Made by a program: the position numbers and the translations under genes. From contig JAAERL010001045.1 of assembly GCA_024230435.1 (NCBI GenBank), forward strand, positions 1 through 64,000: a stretch of 64,000 nt of DNA. Direction: 5' to 3'. Under the pieces are notes generated by a model. It saw nothing but the letters and a program-made list of their open reading frames with translations, made no database searches and was not told where the DNA came from. This stretch comes from Desulfobacteraceae bacterium (GTDB lineage Bacteria > Desulfobacterota > Desulfobacteria > Desulfobacterales > Desulfosarcinaceae). Shown piece by piece: positions 34,547 to 35,242 of the stretch (the stretch's first letter is position 1; every line of letters starts with the position of its first letter).

Positions 34547-34613
34547 GTTTTGATCCTGACCTGTATATCCTGTATAAAACCGGCGCGATGCCGGGTGTAT
34601 TGCCTTTTCTAAG

Positions 34614-34772
34614 AGCTTGTTTGGGAAAATAGAAAATTTAGCGGAAAAGTGCGTGGGCGAGGCCAAAATGTCTCAAAGTTGAGATGAATAGCCGGTCTAT
34701 TTGTCGAAAGTTTGCGTCATTTTGTACTGTTCTCGCTCTTTTGCAGCCGATTTAATAATTCCCAAACAGGCC
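34614..34772. repeat. Foldback element F2 (about 159 bp)
   Basis: Ends TGTTTGGGAA / TTCCCAAACA. The two halves match each other's reverse complement along most of their length, including GCGAG..CAAAATG against CATTTTG..CTCGC. It is non-coding and different in sequence from F1. One copy was seen in this window. Confidence 0.65.
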
Positions 34773-34790
34773 CTAACACCCTAAAATAAA

Positions 34791-34821
34791 AAAGAAGACA
34801 CGTAAAACACATGTCTTCTTT
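34791..34821 (-). terminator. Bidirectional-looking terminator, probably of sat
   Basis: AAAGAAGACA (34791-34800) pairs with TGTCTTCTTT (34812-34821); the minus strand then runs into TTTTTTATTTTA. It is separated from the sat stop by the insertion-sequence remnant, which seems to have landed between gene and terminator. Confidence 0.65.
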
Positions 34822-34837
34822 TTCTTTATAAAATGAT

Positions 34838-35222
34838 GAGGCGAGAAAACCCCAAGGTCTTTAGACTTGGGGATGAATCGGTCTCTGTGCTATTATCCCT
34901 GTGATTCAATATACTTGCTTACAGTATCAATTGACGCTTTTCCAATCGAACAACAAAAATATCCATCACTCCAAATCGAATAACCGATATTTGAATAACC
35001 GGCGTCGATTCTTAATTCCTACTTTGTTTGCCCAGTAGGGTATTTGAGTTGAATGGTAAAAGGACTGTGGCAGACAATCACCGCTTTGCCTTGTTTCAAC
35101 AATAATCGAGCTTTTCGGCAATTTGTAGGCATCAACGGTCTGCCTCTCATATTTTTGTGACACATGCAACCAATGTAACGTAGCTCTCAAGCCCCTTGGC
35201 CTTTAGCCGAGGGGCTTGTAGA
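34838..35222 (-). mobile_element. Remnant of an IS200/IS605-type element
   Basis: Two related end hairpins bound it: CCCCAAGTC/GACCTTGGGG-type at about 34850-34873 and AAGCCCCTCGG/CCAAGGGGCTT at about 35188-35219. Such subterminal hairpins are recognised by the Y1 transposase of this family. Between them lies one decayed frame (34893-35165) joining iscB and tnpA pieces. At about 385 bp it is far shorter than an intact element (about 1.5-2.5 kb). Confidence 0.75.
34893..35165 (-). pseudogene. Collapsed iscB-tnpA fusion remnant
   Basis: Read from ATG at 35165, the frame gives RGRPLMPTNCRKARLLLKQG, then KAVIVCHSPFTIQLKYPTG, the RRXRR-type N-terminus of IscB. After an in-frame TAG it continues as LRIDAGYSNIGYS, matching the RuvC-I motif (Asp in IDAG). 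With no break it then becomes IWSDGYFCCSIG ... VSKYIESQG and stop, the C-terminus of an IS200-type TnpA. So an internal deletion removed most of iscB and of tnpA while keeping frame, and a stop codon arose later. No activity is expected. Confidence 0.75.
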
Positions 35223-35242
35223 CTCCTTTGCTTTGAGCCTGA

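Follow-up and report, generated by a model that had tools for sequence, protein, structure and literature searches.

The locus at positions 34830 to 35223 of the analysed DNA is most probably (we put the probability at about 0.88) a decayed copy of a non-autonomous ISC transposon, with a fused IscB-TnpA reading frame as its neutrally evolving passenger. All positions are counted along the forward strand of the window, i.e. the whole stretch of 64,000 nt that was analysed. The parent element would have been ordered as left end, HEARO/omega-RNA, iscB, tnpA (or its tail) and right end, and one internal deletion, as judged from relatives, would have removed IscB after RuvC-I together with tnpA except for approximately its last 27 codons. 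The fusion product then moved, presumably through a Y1 TnpA acting in trans on the end hairpins next to ATAAA, to give the six present copies, which share the junction while their flanks are unrelated. The window copy has no HEARO, the two breakpoints lying at short direct repeats, and carries a stop in the fused frame.

Anatomy of the window element

The following features were identified:

34830..35223, minus strand: whole element, 394 bp, ends set by comparison with the sister copies
35189..35217, minus strand: left-end hairpin (IscB orientation), DNA fold z -4.35, kin to the other listed left ends
35184..35190, minus strand: 7-nt direct repeat at the junction of the first deletion, 42 bp missing in the alignment with contig C136
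35170..35174, minus strand: 5-nt direct repeat at the junction of the second deletion, 195 bp missing in the same alignment
34977..35165, minus strand: IscB head with RRXRR/PLMP region and RuvC-I motif (PF14239, NF040563)
35019..35021, minus strand: TAG stop within the fused frame, without counterpart in the five sister copies
34896..34976, minus strand: TnpA C-terminal tail (PF01797 positions 92-121), including the YIESQ stretch, which we take to be the catalytic tyrosine helix
34850..34872, minus strand: right-end hairpin, DNA fold z -2.56, of a sequence type that recurs in other right ends
34825..34829, minus strand: ATAAA directly beyond the right end, probable target motif (TAM), recurring at other right ends

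A preliminary description had read this locus as a collapsed IS200/IS605-type element, and the head, the tail and the end hairpins all back this, the element being of the ISC kind. The IscB N-terminus with RRXRR and RuvC-I that it recognized is far beyond chance: the head alone, in the minus-strand frame from 35165, matches RRXRR (PF14239) with an E-value of 1.9e-10 and guided_IscB (NF040563) with 5.8e-13. Likewise, the proposed TnpA C-terminus, taken alone, matches Y1_Tnp (PF01797) with an E-value of 2.2e-7. Neither part is an intact protein, as the head covers only the first ~70 of 314 IscB profile positions, short of a nuclease with both RuvC and HNH, and the tail, made up of the last ~27 residues of a Y1 TnpA, spans only profile positions 92-121 of 121, short of the TnpA of an autonomous element. 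Head and tail are joined in one frame, as had been proposed for a frame-preserving fusion, but in the window the frame is not open: owing to the TAG, its IscB part stays open for 48 codons. Furthermore, the window ORF has a 6-bp gap, which is common to contig C644.

The end hairpins, described earlier as related, share a CTAAAG core and both beat shuffled sequences when folded as single-stranded DNA. Such subterminal hairpins, which fold at both window ends and match those of other copies, are a trait of ISC and other IS200/IS605 elements. The element limits first given, 34838 and 35222, had to be moved to about 34830 and 35223.

The gene upstream of the element is sat (NCBIfam NF003166, 2.3e-142) and the next one is qmoC (NCBIfam), so the host is presumably a sulfate reducer. 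On the other side of the element from sat, a terminator-like inverted repeat with 82% complementarity is found at 34782-34830, which agrees with the earlier placement of the remnant between sat and its probable terminator. Apart from its location in the sat 3' region, no function was seen for the window element. Adjoining the element is a ~165-bp repeat (window 34612-34774) whose inverted ends have arms of 16 nt, with at least 41 matches in this genome including itself (40 of 133 candidates scored).

Sister copies and the evolution of the fused frame

The genome harboring the window (6.13 Mb on 1238 contigs) contains 28 matches to the region, window included. The same head-tail junction was found on contigs C644, C1057, C750, C136 and C144, at 91-95% identity to the window. 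Together with the window this gives six junction copies on six contigs, whose flanks are unrelated outside the ends according to the alignment. The left end is present in all five sisters, while the right end is complete in four of the six copies (C644, C1057, C750 and the window); C136 is without the hairpin there, and C144 without the right end. Contig C8, and probably also C364, holds a truncated copy that retains the junction. Other matches derive from the same element through different deletions.

One internal deletion is thus shared by several copies at unrelated sites, as in a non-autonomous derivative. Six copies with one junction and unrelated flanks argue that the deletion was probably a single one, whose product, a non-autonomous ISC element (MITE/PATE-like), then spread. 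From the unrelated sequence outside the ends it also follows that the element moved when it was already fused, these flanks being the only trace from which its transposition is read. The collapse is not an event of this locus alone, since the junction is common to all six copies and the deletion product multiplied. An artefact of assembly or chance, to which a fragmented assembly of 1238 contigs might lend itself, is an extremely improbable source of the junction: it recurs on six contigs whose flanks differ, the fused frames of the four copies compared diverge by 5-8%, and the profile E-values range from 1e-7 to 1e-13.

In all five sisters, where the TAG of the window is absent, the fused frame remains open across the TnpA tail. 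C1057 carries both RRXRR (3.7e-14) and Y1_Tnp (5.9e-6) within a single 87-aa frame, and in C644 and C750 a 1-nt indel lets the frame continue beyond its usual stop. A second, different in-frame IscB::TnpA join occurs on contig C627 (locus L033, 2092-2466), where the RuvC-II region is followed by TnpA profile positions 38-119. As this join starts from position 38, the lineage must formerly have had more of tnpA.

Both the five open sister frames and the C627 join would fit a maintained small protein, which would regulate or block transposition or IscB by means of its RuvC-I head and TnpA tyrosine helix. The substitutions make this highly improbable. Among the six copies (the truncated C8 and C364 were excluded) we counted 38 distinct changes in the fused frame, namely 10 synonymous, 27 nonsynonymous and one stop. 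The synonymous share of 26% is what would be expected without selection (24.9%, p = 0.85), in agreement with simulation, and the purifying selection that a functional IscB-TnpA fusion protein would entail was not found. So few synonymous changes would have a probability of 9e-4 under an omega of 0.3 and of 0.059 under an omega of 0.5, so that mild constraint (omega 0.5) is only weakly disfavored. The open sister frames are unremarkable, since approximately two stops were expected and one was seen. Against a maintained protein also stand the TAG of the window copy and the finding of the fusion in no other sampled genome (see below). IscB is a relative of the ancestor of Cas9, and a natural IscB deletion derivative had been put forward as the point of interest of the locus. 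The derivative is real, but neutral evolution leaves the preserved frame without visible functional weight.

The phylum sample was searched for the fused region, which was found in the own genome only among 395 (two candidates scored per genome). Similarly, the family sample of 30 genomes gave a match in the own genome only, while 15 out of 389 genomes in the class sample, own included, match some part of the region (again with two candidates scored per genome); the samples are overlapping and non-exhaustive. Four loci among 60 hits in named genomes, L056, L062, L075 and L082, aligned over most of the junction and raised the question of a fusion conserved in other organisms. Their frames show ordinary IscB after RuvC-I and no TnpA tail, and the candidates were rejected; frames were read at 16 of the 60 loci. 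Within the literature within reach, which left out most subscription papers, no description of a multi-copy element with an IscB head and a TnpA tail was found.

Guide RNA, ends and parent design

A guide-RNA-like leader, which the preliminary description had proposed to look for, is present in sister copies but not in the window copy. HEARO (Rfam RF02033), the RNA of the 5' region, is described in PMC9755519 as the guide RNA of IscB. It scored over the gathering score of 83 in four of the six fusion copies, between the left end and the IscB start: C144 (129.5 bits), C1057 (114.7), C136 (112.2) and C644 (96.5). The C644 match is split by another repeat, and C750 reached 61.7 bits, under the gathering score. 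No HEARO match was obtained upstream of the IscB head in the window copy, which lacks 42 and 195 bp relative to C136, with breakpoints at 7- and 5-nt direct repeats. The two deletions at these short repeats removed most of the window HEARO.

Nested in the C644 HEARO region is a ~175-bp repeat (locus L026, 1560-1740) with at least 40 matches in this genome (40 of 534 candidates scored). It may represent a very abundant MITE family, and pieces of it also adjoin several other ISC remnants.

HEARO loci outnumber recognisable IscB genes in this genome, with 20 HEARO matches at E <= 1e-3, four of them over the gathering score, versus none of the ten IscB matches over the family cut-off. Among the four copies compared, HEARO diverges by 6-8.5% and the ORF by 5-8%; no special conservation of HEARO was seen there, as it diverges about as fast as the ORF.

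These data bear on whether the sisters are working guide-RNA elements, whose expressed HEARO would load an IscB from elsewhere and thereby aid the persistence of the mini-element. Full-length HEAROs over the gathering score in four fusion copies speak for this, as does ATAAA by the right end wherever that end is kept (ATAGA in C1057). An assembly without any IscB over the cut-off, a HEARO divergence about equal to that of a neutral ORF, one of the four HEAROs split by a repeat, the low score in C750 and the lack of a match in the window all speak against it, and we consider it improbable. Equally doubtful is that the sisters are RNA-guided miniature transposons, chimeric mini-elements with their own ends and an IscB omega-RNA, which a TnpA would move and a borrowed IscB would hold in place, both acting in trans. 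If true, this would mean guide-directed persistence for an element encoding no complete protein.

The ends were followed by BLAST among the fetched loci, where the left-end query gave 20 matches, one of which is actually a right end, and the right-end query 11. ATAAA lies next to ten of the 11 right ends, with ATAGA at the one in C1057. By reading the sequence, ATAAA was also found at the right ends of all three full-length relatives L162, L163 and L164. In PMC13180657, ATAAA is given as the optimal TAM of OrufIscB. A constant target motif beside one end is as expected of ISC elements; since motif and element end are indistinguishable without empty sites, the invariant ATAAA may instead belong to the element itself. 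Two loci in this genome, L038 (C885) and L039 (C848), are ~55-bp hybrids that join half of the left-end hairpin to a right end and appear in both end lists; their breakpoints differ.

L162, L163 and L164, from three genomes of the same taxonomic order as the window, share one layout: left end, HEARO, iscB, TnpA tail and right end. Their TnpA tail is headless and the right end is of the same type as in the window element. From this layout, the TnpA piece beside the right end is part of the parent design. IscB frames of 300 aa or more that are followed by at least 600 bp of sequence numbered 56; a TnpA tail or TnpA lay within those 600 bp in 14 cases but not in the other 42, in a set biased by the finding of L092, L093 and L115 with tail peptides and of L162-L164 with a tail-containing query. 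According to PMC9755519, TnpA was only rarely found with HEARO nucleases. In Ktedonobacter (L092), HEARO, IscB and a complete TnpA occur in a row. Headless TnpA C-terminal tails within a few hundred bases after IscB were seen in L162, L163, L164, L191, L097 and the two Marithrix loci L076 and L083; in L162, the first ATG of the tail overlaps the IscB stop. As the tails differ in where they begin, TnpA heads appear to have been lost more than once.

An intact parent with iscB and tnpA of this type was sought in the own genome and not found, and we therefore infer both the source of the element and the transposase that moved it. The same genome has 34 Y1_Tnp matches, among them a complete Y1 TnpA on contig C350 with a tail of another type.

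Comparison with known systems

The best reading is that of an ordinary decayed deletion derivative of a transposon kind already known, with the chimeric ORF as a passenger. It exemplifies one decay path of IscB transposons, where the nuclease and the transposase are lost while the ends, the guide-RNA gene and, by the right end, a TnpA tail remain and are still able to spread, and offers a clear natural ISC decay series in which guide-RNA loci outlast the nuclease. Caution is also called for with HEARO hits in genomes and with short open frames of the "RRXRR" or "IscB" type, as these may be carried along by mini-elements rather than mark working nucleases.

ISC elements are described in PMC6452270 as transposons encoding IscB, and the same paper reports that the related tnpB genes are found more often in non-autonomous than in autonomous elements. 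The element resembles ISC transposons (IS200/IS605 superfamily, RF02033) in its end hairpins, IscB head, TnpA tail, ATAAA by the right end and, in sister copies, left-end HEARO. It differs in having neither an intact IscB nor an intact TnpA, both gene bodies being deleted, and in the window copy it also lacks HEARO.

An internally deleted ISC element is also found in Oceanospirillales Hp36 (L090, 2388-3084), where an IscB fragment stands between HEARO (130.4 bits) and a TnpA tail, as it does in our element (with HEARO in the sisters). L090, however, keeps the IscB C-terminus and no head and is thus a separate, independent deletion; its IscB fragment and the tail do not form a single open frame.

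PATEs are characterized in PMC7290912 as ends-only, palindrome-associated IS200/IS605 derivatives, often moved in trans. Like these, the element is short, has palindromic ends on both sides and spread without a complete transposase of its own, presumably in trans, and we infer that it works in a PATE/MITE-like manner. Unlike PATEs as described there, it keeps gene pieces and, in the sisters, a guide-RNA gene. The window element is thus an internally deleted ISC element that stands between ISC elements and PATEs.
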